This document shows positions 3,015-11,772 of a stretch of DNA of 14,472 nucleotides, piece by piece. Origin of the DNA: Sedimentisphaerales bacterium (lineage in GTDB: Bacteria > Planctomycetota > Phycisphaerae > Sedimentisphaerales > SG8-4). Each line of letters begins with the position of its first letter. Within the stretch, counting starts at the first letter, position 1. The notes under the pieces are model-generated. The model saw only the letters and a program-made list of their open reading frames with translations. It was not told the origin of the DNA and searched no databases. The stretch spans positions 1 to 14,472 of the forward strand of contig JAFGCA010000192.1 of the NCBI GenBank assembly GCA_016932895.1, read 5' to 3'. A program made the position numbers and the translations under genes.

Positions 3015-3746
3015 ATGGCCGGACGTCTGGATGAGAGAGTGGCGATTGTCACAGGGAGCAGTCGCGGGATTGGCAGGGCCATCGCCCTGGCGCTGGGGGC
3101 CGAGGGCGCAACGCTGGTCCTGGCGGCGCGATCCTCAGCAAAGCTCGAAGAGACGGCCGACCTCGTGCGCCGGGCCGGCGGGCGGGCCGAGACGGTTGTG
3201 ACCGAGCTGACTGATGAAGACTCGATTCGCAGCCTCGTGACGGTCGCGGGCGACACGTTCGGCCGGCTCGACATCCTCATCAACAACGCCGGCATCACCC
3301 ATTCGGCCCCGCTGGAGCAGACGCGGACCGAGGACCTCGACCGCTGCTGGGCCGTCAACGCGCGGGCGCCGTTCATTCTCTGTCGCGAAGCCTTGCCCCT
3401 GCTGAAGCAGGCTGCCCAGGCAACCATCGTCAATATCTCCTCGGTCGTCGGCGTCAAGGGCTACCCGCTGCAAAGCGCCTACACCGCCTCCAAGCACGCG
3501 CTTCGCGGCATGACGATCTCGCTGGCCGAGGAACTGCGGGGCACGAACGTCCGCGTTCACGTCATCTGCCCGGGCGGTGTGGATACCGATATGGTGCAGC
3601 ATGTACGCCCTGATATCAGCAAAGAGGATCTTATCGGGCCTGACGAAATCGCCGGCCTGGTTCTTTATCTCGTAACGCACAAGGGAAACGCCGTGGTCGA
3701 CGAGCTGCACGTTCGCCGGGCCGTCGCGTCGCCCTGGTTTGGATAG
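3015..3746 (+). CDS. Short-chain dehydrogenase/reductase (SDR), FabG-like
   Basis: An NAD(P)(H)-dependent cytoplasmic oxidoreductase of 243 residues, a normal length for classical SDRs. The Rossmann cofactor motif TGSSRGIG is at residues 13-20, and Arg39 after strand 2 (LAARS) favours NADP(H). NNAG is at 90-93. The catalytic set is Asn115, Ser143, Tyr156 and Lys160 (YTASK), and the PGGVDT loop is at 186-191. The start has AAGGAG 5 nt upstream. The C-terminal part (VDELHVRR) matches SDRs that act on small carbonyl or sugar-type substrates, but the substrate cannot be assigned. The glycoside hydrolase gene follows on the same strand. The two seem once to have been closely coupled, now separated by the palindromic element, which suggests a role in carbohydrate use (inference). 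Confidence 0.93.
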   Translation: MAGRLDERVAIVTGSSRGIGRAIALALGAEGATLVLAARSSAKLEETADLVRRAGGRAETVVTELTDEDSIRSLVTVAGDTFGRLDILINNAGITHSAPLEQTRTEDLDRCWAVNARAPFILCREALPLLKQAAQATIVNISSVVGVKGYPLQSAYTASKHALRGMTISLAEELRGTNVRVHVICPGGVDTDMVQHVRPDISKEDLIGPDEIAGLVLYLVTHKGNAVVDELHVRRAVASPWFG

Positions 3747-3748
3747 GA

Positions 3749-3928
3749 TGAGGACTTATGGAAAATGGAGATTAGGCTTATATTCTTCAAGGAAATCGTT
3801 GGTTTGATTTCCTTGAAGAAGGCGGCTATATGCTATTGCCAAAGCACTTACGTTCTCGGGAGGAAGAATCACGAAGAAGATTCTTCCTCCCTAAAGTAAG
3901 CCTAATCTCCATTTTCCATAAGTCTACG
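3749..3928. mobile_element. Nested palindromic element (MITE-like), no coding capacity
   Basis: Outer arms 3753-3780 and 3897-3924 are perfect 28-bp inverted repeats (left arm begins GACTTATGG). Inside are two further perfect hairpins: 3783-3797 with 3806-3820 (15 bp, 8-nt loop), and 3858-3870 with 3879-3891 (13 bp, 8-nt loop). A 37-nt spacer (3821-3857) separates them. TAGGA occurs at 3744-3748 and 3929-3933, exactly 4 nt outside each arm, and could be a 5-bp target duplication. The element is clearly more AT-rich than the flanking genes and encodes no protein. It starts just after the dehydrogenase stop and ends just before the ribosome binding site of the hydrolase. If transcribed it would fold into a long stem carrying two hairpins. 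It resembles a non-autonomous transposable element; a structured RNA or hairpin-type replication or processing site is also possible. Confidence 0.8.
3753..3924. repeat. 28-bp perfect terminal inverted repeats of the palindromic element
   Basis: The arm at 3753-3780 is the exact reverse complement of 3897-3924. Pairing could extend by one G.U wobble at either end in RNA. The enclosed 116 nt hold the two smaller hairpins. Confidence 0.95.
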
Positions 3929-3944
3929 TAGGAGCAAACAAGCT

Positions 3945-6719
3945 ATGGGAGAAAGCGTGCAATCGTTCTGTCGGGGGCTGATGTTCGTTCTCGTTTCGTC
4001 GGTCATCCTCAGTTCGGGCCTGGCCGCCCACGAGACCGAGGTCGTCTACCTCTCCGGACAGGGCAAGGACGACGCGGTGGAATGGGACTTCTACTGCACC
4101 GCCGGCCGACGTAGCGGCCAGTGGACGAACATTCCCGTTCCCTCGAACTGGGAACTCCAGGGCTTCGGCACCTACAATTACGGCCACGACAAGCCAAAAG
4201 CCGACGAGCAAGGCAAATACAAACGGACGTTCGACGTTCCCCAGACCTGGACGGGCAGGCGCATCTTCCTCATCTTCGGGGGCGTTATGACCGACACGGA
4301 GGTCCGCGTCAACGGCAAATCGGCCGGGCCCGTCCACCAGGGTGGCTTCTATCGCTTCAAATACGAGATCACCGATCTCGTCAAGCCAGGTGAAAACCTC
4401 CTCGAGGTGACCGTCAGCAAGGTCTCGGCCAACGCCAGCGTCGAGACCGCCGAGCGAAAGGCCGACTACTGGGTCTTCGGCGGCATCTTCCGGCCTGTCT
4501 ATCTCGAGGTGCTCCCGCCGGAGTTCATCGATTCGATCGCTATCGACGCCAGGGCCGACGGCTCCTTCCGGATGGATGTGTATCTCAACGGCGTTGCCGA
4601 TATCAGTATTATTACTGCACTTCTTATCGGGCCCGACGGCAAATGCCTCGCTGAGCCTTTCGAGGCAGAGTTCTCGCCGGCACAAGAGAAGGTGACCTTG
4701 CGGACCCAGGTCACAGGACAGAAGCTCTGGACCGCCGAGACGCCGAACCTCTGCGAGGCCAGGATCACCCTGCGGCAGGGCGGCAGGGCGGTACACAGGG
4801 TCACGCAACGCTTTGGTTTTCGGACGTTTGAGCTGCGGCCGGGCGACGGGATGTACCTCAACGGGCAGAAGATCCGCCTCAAAGGCGTCTGCCGCCACAG
4901 CTTCTGGCCCGATTCGGGACGGTGCCTCAGCAAAGAGATCAGCTACGCTGACGTCCGCCTGATCAAGGAAATGAACATGAACGCGGTGCGAATGTCCCAC
5001 TATCCGCCCGATTCGCACTTCCTCGACGCCTGCGACGAGCTGGGGCTCTACGTGCTCGACGAGCTCGCCGGCTGGCAAAAGCCGCCTTACGATACTGATA
5101 TCGGCACAAAGCTGGTCGCCGAGATGGTCCCACGCGACGTCTGCCACCCCAGCATCCTGTTCTGGGACAACGGCAACGAGGGCGGATGGAACCGCGACCT
5201 GGACGACCAGTTCGCGCTCTACGATCCGCAGAAGCGAACGGTCCTGCACCCGTGGGAGAGCTTCAACGGCATAGACACCGATCATTATGAGAGCTACGAG
5301 AGCATTCGGAAGAAGCTCGCCGGCTCGACGCTGTTCATGCCGACCGAGTTCCTCCACGGGCTCTACGACGGTGGGCACGGGGCCGGCCTGGAGGATCAGT
5401 GGAACCTGATGTCCGCCTCGCCCCTCGGCGCCGGCGGCTTCCTGTGGGTCCTCGCCGACGAGGGCGTCGTCCGCACCGACAAGGACGGGAAGATCGACGT
5501 CGACGGCAACCACGCGCCCGACGGAATCGTCGGCCCGTATCGCGAAAAGGAGGGCAGCTTCTACACCATCAAGGAGATCTGGTCCCCGGTGCAGGTCGAT
5601 CCGCAACGGTTGGGCGATGATTTCAATGGTGCGATGGAAGTGGAGAATCGGTACGACTTTACGAACCTGCGCGAGTGCGTTTTCGAGGTGAAGCTGGCGG
5701 AGTTCCCGGCCCCGGGCGCGGGCATCGACGGGCACGCCGTCTTCTTCCAGCGCGCGTTCCCGGGCCCCGATATCAAGCCGCACGGCGAAGGCACGCTCGA
5801 TTTGGGTCTGCCCGCGACCTGGCGGGATGCGGACGTCCTGTACCTGACGGCCTCTGACCCCACAGGCCGCGAGATTTGGACCTGGTCGTGGGACATCCGT
5901 CCGCCGGACCACTATCGCCGGCAGTGCCTTACCAACACCGCCGCCGCAGGCGCCCGGGTAAAAGCCACCGCCAGCGGTGGCCGCGTTAGCCTCGAAACCG
6001 GCGATTTGACCTTCGGATTCGATCCCAACGACGCAACGTTCACCGATCTCCAGGTCAAGGGCAAGCCCATCGCCTTCGGCGGTGGCCCGACGGTGATCGG
6101 CGGGACGGCCAAGCCGGTCAAGGTCAGAGGCGTTCAAGACGGCAACAACGTCGTGATCGACGTCGCGTACGAGGGAAGCCTCGAGAGCGCCCGCTGGACG
6201 GTATGCCCGAGCGGGTGGATTCGCCTGGAGTACACGTACGAACTGGAAGGGCAGTTCGGCCTCTTCGGCGTCCACTTCGAGTATCCCGAGAGCCGGATGA
6301 AGTCGATGCGCTGGCTGGGACACGGACCGTACCGCGTGTGGAAAAACCGTATGAAGGGCGGCCGCCTGGATCTCTGGAGCAACGCATACAAAGACCACAC
6401 TCCCGGCCTCACGTGGGACTTCCCCGAGTTCCGCGGCTACTACCGCCACTGGCGCTGGGTCGTCTTCGAGACGAACGAGGGGACGATCACGATTGTGAAC
6501 GAAACGCCCGATCTGTTCTTAGGCGTATATCGTCCGAAAGACGGCCCGGACCCGAGCAATACAAAGCTGGACGCACCGGAAACGGGCATCGCCTTCCTGC
6601 ACGGCATCCCCGCCATCGGCACCAAGTTCCAAAAACCCGAAAGCCTCGGACCGCAGGGCCGCAAGAACGAAGCCTCCGGCACTTATCGCGGCAGCGTCTG
6701 GTTCCACTTTGACAACTGA
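3945..6719 (+). CDS. Secreted glycoside hydrolase family 2 (beta-galactosidase-like)
   Basis: A 924-residue retaining glycosidase with a Sec signal peptide (residues 1-28, cleavage after GLAA). A sugar-binding jelly-roll domain (about 60-190) includes IPVPSNWELQGFG. An Ig-like sandwich (about 195-295) leads into a TIM barrel from about 300. The barrel carries the GH2 signatures GVCRHSF and NAVRMSHYPP, the acid/base Glu412 in NGNEGGW and the probable nucleophile Glu468 in PTEF. From about 685 to the end the sequence resembles the beta-galactosidase small-chain domain (GLFGVHFEYP, then WLGHGP near 790), which points to a LacZ-like subgroup. The actual substrate may be another beta-glycoside. 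The ribosome binding site GGAG at 3931-3934 is 10 nt from the ATG and lies just outside the palindromic element. The preceding SDR gene may belong to the same pathway. No transporter or regulator for the sugar is in the window. Confidence 0.93.
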   Translation: MGESVQSFCRGLMFVLVSSVILSSGLAAHETEVVYLSGQGKDDAVEWDFYCTAGRRSGQWTNIPVPSNWELQGFGTYNYGHDKPKADEQGKYKRTFDVPQTWTGRRIFLIFGGVMTDTEVRVNGKSAGPVHQGGFYRFKYEITDLVKPGENLLEVTVSKVSANASVETAERKADYWVFGGIFRPVYLEVLPPEFIDSIAIDARADGSFRMDVYLNGVADISIITALLIGPDGKCLAEPFEAEFSPAQEKVTLRTQVTGQKLWTAETPNLCEARITLRQGGRAVHRVTQRFGFRTFELRPGDGMYLNGQKIRLKGVCRHSFWPDSGRCLSKEISYADVRLIKEMNMNAVRMSHYPPDSHFLDACDELGLYVLDELAGWQKPPYDTDIGTKLVAEMVPRDVCHPSILFWDNGNEGGWNRDLDDQFALYDPQKRTVLHPWESFNGIDTDHYESYESIRKKLAGSTLFMPTEFLHGLYDGGHGAGLEDQWNLMSASPLGAGGFLWVLADEGVVRTDKDGKIDVDGNHAPDGIVGPYREKEGSFYTIKEIWSPVQVDPQRLGDDFNGAMEVENRYDFTNLRECVFEVKLAEFPAPGAGIDGHAVFFQRAFPGPDIKPHGEGTLDLGLPATWRDADVLYLTASDPTGREIWTWSWDIRPPDHYRRQCLTNTAAAGARVKATASGGRVSLETGDLTFGFDPNDATFTDLQVKGKPIAFGGGPTVIGGTAKPVKVRGVQDGNNVVIDVAYEGSLESARWTVCPSGWIRLEYTYELEGQFGLFGVHFEYPESRMKSMRWLGHGPYRVWKNRMKGGRLDLWSNAYKDHTPGLTWDFPEFRGYYRHWRWVVFETNEGTITIVNETPDLFLGVYRPKDGPDPSNTKLDAPETGIAFLHGIPAIGTKFQKPESLGPQGRKNEASGTYRGSVWFHFDN

Positions 6720-8291: not shown

Positions 8292-8586
8292 GCCAAGTTG
8301 CCTCTCTCGTAAAGGCGCCTGAGAAGTCGCCGACCCACGCTCGCTTGCGAAAGAAACTCCTCGGTCGCCCGCTGCCGCTGCCGATGGCGATATCGGTTTC
8401 CACGGGCTCTGTAAGCCCATCTACCACGAGAGTGAGTTTGCGGCCGGTGCCCTTGCGCGCGCTCGACTGCCCATAGCACTCGGCGGGAAAGAAGTCGTAG
8501 TAGCCGCTGATGTACAGGTGGCGATTCCGGAGGTTGCCGCCCGTGATCGATAGGAGCCTCTTATTGTTGCCGATTTCACCACTCAA
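8248..8586 (-). CDS. Small B3-like-domain protein, TTG start, probable 3' frameshift
   Basis: The product is 112 residues. The only in-frame start is TTG at 8586: an in-frame stop lies 5 codons upstream, and AAGGGA is 7 nt before the TTG. The core ITGGNLRNRHLYISGYYDFFP ... PVETDIAIGSG ... SFFRKRAWVGDF resembles small DNA-binding proteins of a B3/EcoRII-N-like type met near restriction enzymes (recognised by pattern, moderate certainty). After Phe88 the frame continues to 8248, overlapping the HNH gene by 44 bp. One extra base at about 8323 would instead give LRRLYERGNLA and a TGA at 8290-8288, making an ATGA overlap with the HNH start, typical of translational coupling. It is therefore probably the first gene of a two-gene operon, damaged or mis-sequenced at its 3' end. 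Function unknown; DNA recognition alongside the nuclease is inferred. Confidence 0.6.
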   Translation of the reverse strand: MSGEIGNNKRLLSITGGNLRNRHLYISGYYDFFPAECYGQSSARKGTGRKLTLVVDGLTEPVETDIAIGSGSGRPRSFFRKRAWVGDFSGAFTREATWHESQGGDYPQQESD

Positions 8587-10369: not shown

Positions 10370-10399
10370 AAGTGGCCGGACGTTTACCAGCGGCCACTT
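10370..10399. terminator. Stem-loop at the trpB 3' end
   Basis: AAGTGGCCG (10370-10378) and CGGCCACTT (10391-10399) form a perfect 9-bp stem with a 12-nt loop that contains the trpB stop codon. It has T-rich flanks on the plus side (TTTTT) and TTATTC on the minus side, so it could terminate trpB transcripts at moderate efficiency. Confidence 0.5.
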
Positions 10400-11772
10400 T
10401 TTCGCACCTCCGCCTGGGGCAGCGTATCCAGGTCCTTCGTAAATCTCTTCAGGTCCTCTTCGGGCAGCTCGTAGTCGGTGAGCTGGCCCGACATGTAGGC
10501 GTCGTATCCGGTCAAATCCATCAATCCGTGACCGCTGTAGTTGAACAGGATCACCTTCTCTTTGCCTTCCTCGCGCGCCTTCTCTGCCTCCTCGATAGCG
10601 CCAGCGATAGCGTGGCTCGTCTCCGGGGCGCAGATCGTTCCCTCAGTCTTGGCCCACGTCAGGGCGGCCTCGTAGCAGGTATTCTGGTGGTACGAGCGCG
10701 GCGTATGAAGCCCTTCGACCACGCACTGGCAAACCAGCGGGGCCATTCCATGATAACGCAGCCCGCCGGCGTGAATGGGCGGCGGGATGAACGCGTGGCC
10801 CAGCGTGTACATCGCCAGCAGGGGAGTGGTGCAGGCCGTGTCGCCAAAGTCATAGTGGAACGGCGCCCGCGTCAACGTCGGGCAGGCCGTCGGTTCGGTC
10901 GGGATGATCGTGATGTCCGCCCCGTTGATCTTGTCGAGGGTAAAGGGAAACGCCAGGCCGGCGAAGTTGCTGCCGCCGCCGGCACAGCCAATCACGACGT
11001 CCGGGAGTTTCTCCCCCGCCATTTTCAACTGCTTCTTCGCTTCCAGACCGATGATCGATTGGTGCAGCAGGACGTGATTCAGAACGCTTCCCAGCGAGTA
11101 GCGGGTCTGGCCGGACGGGTCGGTAACCGCCTGCTCGATCGCTTCGCTGATGGCGATGCCCAAACTGCCGGGCGTGTCCGGAATCTCCTCGAGGATCTTG
11201 CGTCCGGCGTTCGTCTCCGAGCTGGGACTGGCAACGCAGTTGGCGCCCCAGACCTGCATCATCATCTTGCGGAAGGGCTTCTGGTCGAAGCTGATCCGCA
11301 CCATGAAAACCTTACACTCCAGACCCAGCAGGGCGCAGGCAAACGCCAAAGCGCTGCCCCATTGCCCGGCGCCGGTCTCGGTGGTGAGCCGCTTGATGCC
11401 GAATTCCTTGTTGTAGTACGCCTGCGCCACCGCCGTGTTGGGCTTGTGACTGCCCGGCGGGCTGGTGCTCTCATCCTTGTAGTAGATGCGCGCCGGTGTC
11501 TTGAGGTGCTTCTCTAAATAGACCGCACGTCGCAACGGAGCGGGACGCCACCGGTACAGAATATCGAGCACCCCTTCGGGAATATCAATCCAGCGCTCGG
11601 TGCTGACTTCCTGTTCAATCAGATTCATCGGAAACACCGGCGCGAGCATGTCGGGGGACACCGGGTTGCCGTCGGGACCCAAAGGAGGCAACATCGGCGT
11701 GGGAAGATCGGCCGCCAGATTGTACCATTGACGCGGTATGTCACCCTCTTTTAATAGAATTTTATGTTCCAT
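10384..11772 (-). CDS. trpB: Tryptophan synthase beta chain, TrpB2 type
   Basis: A PLP enzyme that condenses indole with L-serine to give tryptophan. ATG at 11772 has GGAGAG 6 nt upstream. The same frame is open to 12003, but that extension is Arg/Cys-rich noise. The product is 462 residues, longer than TrpB1 (about 400) and typical of TrpB2. WRPAPLRRA is at about 75-83, and the PLP-binding Lys110 is in [16 protein letters not shown] at 132-139 binds the carboxylate, and the cofactor phosphate loop is in GCAGGGSNF. The N-terminal MLPPLGP ... FPMNLIEQE segment is also TrpB2-like. No trpA or other trp gene is in the window, consistent with TrpB2 acting as a stand-alone indole-salvage enzyme (known for the class). 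A Trp-codon leader ORF overlaps its start, suggesting tryptophan-responsive control. Confidence 0.95.

Follow-up and report, generated by a model that had tools for sequence, protein, structure and literature searches.

A probable MITE-like transposable palindrome of Phycisphaerae with an extragenic subtype and an in-frame intragenic subtype

The window, a 14,472-nucleotide stretch of Sedimentisphaerales DNA, carries on its plus strand a short-chain dehydrogenase (SDR) gene with an open frame (3015–3746; PF00106) and, downstream of it, an open gene for a beta-galactosidase-like glycoside hydrolase of family 2 (GH2; 3945–6719, start codon at 3945; PF02836 and PF02837). A TrpB-like protein encoded further on (10387–11772) matches a Sedimentisphaerales record at 91% identity and a Phycisphaerales chromosome at 89%. 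Between SDR and GH2 lies a 180-nt palindromic element (3749–3928, plus strand) with the arrangement A-B-B'-C-C'-A'. An inverted-repeat search places its outer arms, A and A', at 3753–3780 and 3897–3924; these terminal inverted repeats are 28 nt long, 100% complementary and 116 nt apart, and form the longest fully complementary pair among the 25 longest of the 48 inverted pairs in the window. Inside them stand two hairpins with 8-nt loops, B-B' (3783–3820; 15-bp stem, arms 3783–3797 and 3806–3820) and C-C' (3858–3891; 13-bp stem, arms 3858–3870 and 3879–3891), separated by a variable spacer (3821–3857) that has the lowest conservation in alignments A1 and A3.

Folded as RNA, the element reaches −101.9 kcal/mol vs −41.1 kcal/mol for shuffled sequences (z −15.4), with none of 200 shuffles as good, and both the minus strand and DNA parameters gave the same folded shape. 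GC content is 39–49% in the five 90-base windows lying mostly on the element, compared with 51–69% in flanking windows. The three nested perfect inverted repeats described in the initial annotation are therefore exact in position and far from chance, and its remark that the base composition is foreign to the neighboring genes holds as well. Terminator and promoter scans of the window added nothing.

A DNA search of 17 related genomes returned strong matches in four (G003, G012, G014, and G016; 15–29 matched pieces each, E down to 5.5e-26), weak matches only in six, and none in seven. The two genomes closest by TrpB (G001 and G002) held no copy by either DNA search or covariance model. When 14 copies were set in one orientation, mean column identity was 76%, and RNAalifold found 62 pairs, 26 of them with double changes. 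The covariance model built from these aligned copies (R1) found a single copy in the window (3752–3925, 162.2 bits). Across the family, it matched 25 of 89 genomes with at most 30 candidates scored per genome, a figure that counts G044 and G051, where the only match was a single weak one; per-genome match counts include some copies twice, once per strand. In an even draw across the class, 13 of 397 genomes matched with at most six candidates scored per genome, and this draw held two carriers outside the first 89 genomes (G374 and G438). In these two and in G053, the element has distant relatives whose best scores are lower (82, 110, and 92 bits, respectively). As far as sampled, the element family is patchy and occurs mostly in one part of the class Phycisphaerae. 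All of our counts come from fragmented genomes and a simple home-made gene caller.

From 60 stretches fetched from four genomes (G084, G003, G014, and G016), together with the window, R1 read 67 copies: one in the window, 23 each in G084 and G003, and 10 in both G014 and G016. In the scan of the 89 genomes, most matches are about 170–182 nt long, with some of 197–214 nt. The gene caller placed 54 of the 67 copies outside genes and 13 inside, which undercounts the latter, as L137 was called intergenic while P0009, whose contig has the identical length (71,711), is an HNH protein with the element's peptide. The initial annotation had reasoned that the lack of a second copy and of compensatory changes in relatives would argue against both a mobile element and a conserved RNA; many copies and many compensatory changes were found, so this test did not refute its reading.

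To see the locus with and without the insert, we compared relatives of GH2, which occur in 26 genomes and of which 20 loci were fetched. The SDR gene lies directly before GH2 in 8 of these 20 (in L217 and L220 a contig edge removes part of it, and in L222 it is matched only piecewise), and R1 found no match in any of the 20 loci (E up to 0.1). The empty gap in G012 (L217) reads GGATAGGAGCAGATGATG, and the filled site in the window reads GGATAGGA, then 180 nt, then TAGGAGCAAACAAGCTATG. This comparison defines the insert as exactly 3749–3928, the limits originally proposed for the palindrome, and shows that its insertion duplicated TAGGA, now present on the left at 3744–3748 and on the right at 3929–3933. 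TAGGAG stands at the SDR stop codon in three of the eight empty sites (L217, L221, and L222), and the other five differ there. The TAG of the target is the SDR stop codon, and the right copy together with the G that follows forms AGGAG, likely the ribosome site of GH2, whose start codon is 10 nt further on. The original target held both signals, with the duplication leaving one for each gene, and the insertion was probably tolerated because each gene kept its signal in this way.

The copies share the terminal repeat CTGGASTTYTGCAAAATGG, clearest in G084, with the end consensus CTGGA. Matches to the ends numbered 82 in G084 and 51 in G085 vs 2 and 1 for the reversed pattern. We tested boundaries in 66 copies (45 extragenic and 21 intragenic, with the partial copy L152 dropped). 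In the extragenic type, 10 of 45 copies matched at least five of six fixed boundary positions, with 1.1 expected, while the 21 intragenic copies showed no excess of duplications (best z 2.0). Target duplications in the extragenic subtype measure 5–7 bp; other copies seem by eye to have 7-bp duplications and so fail the 6-bp test, such as TTCTTGA in L111 and TTCATAA in L104, and L240 and L243 are further 7-bp and 6-bp cases. In G007, ten short end pairs enclose 107, 109, 140, 175, 180, 252, 257, and 275 nt. Because the same ends enclose differing lengths and differing inner folds, the inside of the element is modular.

Several partial forms were also seen. Lone arms end near the end of the outer stem (L197, L203, and L208), other copies are cut inside an inner hairpin (L204, L205, and L210), and the truncation points seem to follow the fold. 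Beyond their breakpoints, two truncated copies (L209 and L210) share a continuation, GGTGGTATCCCCA.ATGACT, which may be a different repeat inserted into the element. From position 2348 of L215, a palindrome of ~38 bp is built from nothing but the two ends and represents a minimal derivative.

The element is short, has dispersed copies without an internal transposase gene, shares terminal inverted repeats among them, duplicates its target in the extragenic subtype, and is missing from empty sites. We conclude with considerable confidence that it is a non-autonomous, MITE-like transposable palindrome of Phycisphaerae, which bears out one of the three guesses made in the initial annotation. Its CTGGASTTYTGCAAAATGG ends and the 5–7-bp duplications of the extragenic subtype suggest that a DDE-type transposase may act on it in trans. 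Reading inward from a chosen subset of 32 ends (19 in G084 and G085, 13 in G007) yielded no long transposase-bearing element; most of these ends run into unlike sequence and appear to belong to truncated copies. In such fragmented genomes, the parent insertion sequence might be lost at contig breaks. In L248, the second end of a copy has decayed; the flanks of a weak 2.7-kb end pair in G007 (L250) do not match; and in L255, the long frame between a lone end and a full copy 2.9 kb away reads, by eye, as glycosidase-like.

Another of the guesses had been a viral inverted terminal repeat. Parvovirus ends are T-shaped and have the same A-B-B'-C-C'-A' layout, and a 19-nt end of the element is present exactly in two viral contigs, so a viral or plasmid terminal repeat, or a relic of one, had to be weighed. 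Yet the copies are dispersed, with 23 read in each of two genomes, blastn matches to phages and plasmids cover only 19–37 bases at E 3–9, and one of the two viral hits (L257) has neither a partner arm nor a strong fold. We regard such an origin as extremely improbable. The exact arm pattern had no match in genome contigs, and the GH2 protein had none in viral contigs. One search of viral contigs for exact shorter arm pieces found none, and two other matches, without a palindrome, were put down to chance. Viral contig L258 breaks off inside the end of one copy (8474–8502); the element may also ride in phage or prophage.

If the copies had descended from a common ancestor and drifted, the difference between the two arms of one copy would be expected to be about the same as the difference between the same arm in different copies. 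With L152 again dropped, complementarity within a copy in the extragenic type (45 copies) was 0.933 vs an identity of 0.734 between copies, and in the intragenic type (21 copies) the values were 0.905 and 0.785. For 34 of 45 extragenic vs 10 of 21 intragenic copies, the best matches of an arm included the other arm of the same copy, and arm co-evolution is weaker in the intragenic than in the extragenic subtype. Alignment A3 holds 44 of the 67 copies, leaving out all intragenic-type copies and L122, which is 214 nt long with another inner hairpin. In these 44 copies, 96.9% of cells are paired (94.5% and 97.1% in helices 1 and 2 of the outer arms; helices 3 and 4 are B-B' and C-C'), and every slid version drops to 36–59%. 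Double changes occur at 37 of 57 pairs vs 14.0 in shuffles, with none of 500 shuffles as good, a comparison that ignores kinship and gives no probability. At one outer pair, 20 copies have G-C, 19 have C-G, and only two are unpaired, which amounts to two joint transversions. The arms of a copy stay complementary while copies drift apart, most strongly in the extragenic subtype. Template switching between arms is given as a known route to homogenized palindromes in the accessible text of one study (PMC8604942). Copying or repair of the element via a folded single strand, with switching between its arms, could be the cause here, as could selection for the fold.

A fold under selection, with dispersal secondary, would also be the mark of a structured RNA, either a cis-acting mRNA element or a small RNA, which was the third guess. 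The double changes are consistent with this reading, and 24 of the 43 copies between co-directional genes sit within 24 nt of the upstream stop. However, orientation relative to genes is unbiased (26 same vs 17 opposite, p 0.22). Extragenic copies occupy 43 co-directional, 6 divergent, and 3 convergent gaps vs 137, 29, and 32 element-free gaps, and the co-directional enrichment is weak (43/52 vs 137/198 gaps, p 0.058; L152 was dropped from the subtype list of this count). Because orientation and gap context are nearly unbiased, a fixed regulatory role is disfavored. Moreover, Rfam gave no match for the element at gathering score, one subtype lies inside coding genes, and insertion is demonstrated by target duplications and empty sites. 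A structured RNA is therefore quite unlikely, and the MITE-like reading remains the better account.

We also considered that the element could be a REP-like or TIR-repeat family moved on folded single strands by an HUH (Y1) tyrosine transposase, as in RAYT/REP or TIRYT/TIRtron systems. The likeness lies in dispersed palindromes, some of them intragenic, and the accessible text of one study describes TIR repeats with Y1 enzymes and reports REPs from Planctomycetes, with intragenic REPs listed in its supplement (PMC3733652). Planctomycetes go unmentioned in the available part of a 2025 REP survey (PMC12306157). All 25 element-bearing genomes have Y1 transposase genes, and none of the 12 genomes that lack Y1 carries the element, a pattern for which genome size is a confounder. 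A route through a folded single strand would also account for arm co-evolution. By contrast, of the 64 genomes that lack the element, 52 also have Y1 genes, and in this genome-level comparison the two show no tight link. At 107–275 nt with CTGGA ends, the element is longer than a REP, defined as a 20–40-nt palindrome with a GTAG or CGTC tag, and lacks either tag. Its copies also have 5–7-bp duplications, which HUH enzymes are not known to make. Movement by an HUH enzyme is unlikely on this evidence, and we continue to treat the element as MITE-like.

The second subtype of this MITE-like element lies within genes. All 13 in-gene copies are read through, 12 of them in sense and one (L141) reversed; L152 lies at an assembly gap. 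Because sense and antisense frames are both often open, this sense bias exceeds what openness alone would give. Model length is divisible by three in 10 of 12 full in-gene copies vs 3 of 9 copies of the same subtype called outside genes, one of which (L137) is actually in a gene. Hosts include PurQ, NAD synthetase, a PfkB/HAD protein, a GH127 protein, a methylenetetrahydrofolate reductase-like protein, and PdxB (4-phosphoerythronate dehydrogenase), where the insert is at the same place in G003 and G016. Two homologous cytochrome proteins (L154 and L133) carry it at different places. The insert interrupts domain matches; the GATase_5 match of PurQ, for example, resumes with a second piece at residue 178 (profile position 117). 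This PurQ site is filled in G003 and empty in nine aligned relatives, PurQ of G016 is empty at 88% DNA identity, and of the 74 genomes with a PurQ match, the other 73 have no listed match that runs across the insert. The element peptide was found in 37 of 57 candidate proteins with ~17 distinct Pfam domain sets, and five proteins had no Pfam domain; in plasmids, the peptide had no match. The subtype with an open frame persists in frame inside enzymes, and the insert is probably tolerated at the protein surface.

Other in-frame sequences accompany the element in some of these genes. In L126 and L136, the two proteins that carry the element also contain a second, different in-frame stretch, with the peptide QKVRRSEGEKVGES...VRPSDLLNFSPSSS, so more than one kind of protein-invading repeat may be present in these genomes. 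The same dehydrogenases (L130, L145, and P0034) contain a third in-frame stretch, TGILPV...QGQDAPAT.GRD; similar peptides occur in other planctomycete and verrucomicrobial proteins. P0033, P0034, and P0035 have hybrid inserts with the second half of the peptide swapped for another (RLQAG...), which look as if two repeat families had recombined within the gene. In P0002, on a 1,810-base contig, the insert sits between the front part of another protein and the rear of PurQ, a junction that stems either from misassembly or from rearrangement through the repeat.

This intragenic subtype resembles the Rickettsia palindromic elements (RPEs), which lie in frame and encode conserved peptides (PMC10969869, PMC2229807). 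As far as the accessible text of these sources goes, RPEs, and Wolbachia palindromic elements (WPEs) as a cited reference only, are palindromes of ~100–150 nt found between genes and in frame within unrelated conserved genes, where they encode a conserved peptide. In-frame palindromes in unrelated genes with a conserved peptide are likewise what we found in the intragenic subtype. Target duplications are clear in one planctomycete subtype, at 5–7 bp, while the accessible table of bacterial MITEs has "?" for RPEs (PMC2229807). The planctomycete element also differs in host, in its nested two-hairpin layout, and in having both extragenic and intragenic subtypes. NCBIfam includes RPE models, and none was among the Pfam and NCBIfam matches of 10 host proteins (E up to 0.01), a comparison made at the level of models.

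Among MITEs, the element resembles Correia/NEMIS, RUP, and ERIC, which in the accessible text of the same source are short and non-autonomous, with terminal inverted repeats, target duplications, and stable folds; its outer perfect stem is 28 bp vs 4–24 bp in the accessible table (PMC2229807). Unlike these families, it has inner hairpins and co-varying arms, and no parent insertion sequence was found for it at the ends read. From the free-living Methanocaldococcus jannaschii, palindromic repeats with coding potential were reportedly described by Suyama in 2005, to go by the title, from which the likeness is drawn. Literature titles and the starts of abstracts, among the matches listed and with most subscription journals outside coverage, held no such palindromic element in Planctomycetes. 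The element appears to be new, a MITE by its features and RPE-like in its outcome, with no sequence relation to either found.

Tentatively, we propose a possible history for both subtypes: a selfish palindrome may be replicated or repaired through its own folded single strand, with its arms behaving as one evolving unit. It would have split into a lineage that stays between genes and a lineage whose arms serve as translatable peptide, in frame in essential enzymes of free-living bacteria. Because its arms co-evolve, the element offers a way to test whether selection or template switching keeps palindromes perfect. Intracellular Rickettsiales are the best-known hosts of in-frame palindromic selfish DNA, and large planctomycete genomes show the same outcome here. 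They offer both subtypes along with empty sites and a wide range of unrelated host proteins, which opens the origin and survival of such inserts to comparative study. Among planctomycete protein models, some contain mobile inserts that interfere with domain searches and structural work, and the intragenic branch shows that selfish DNA can turn into protein sequence outside intracellular bacteria.
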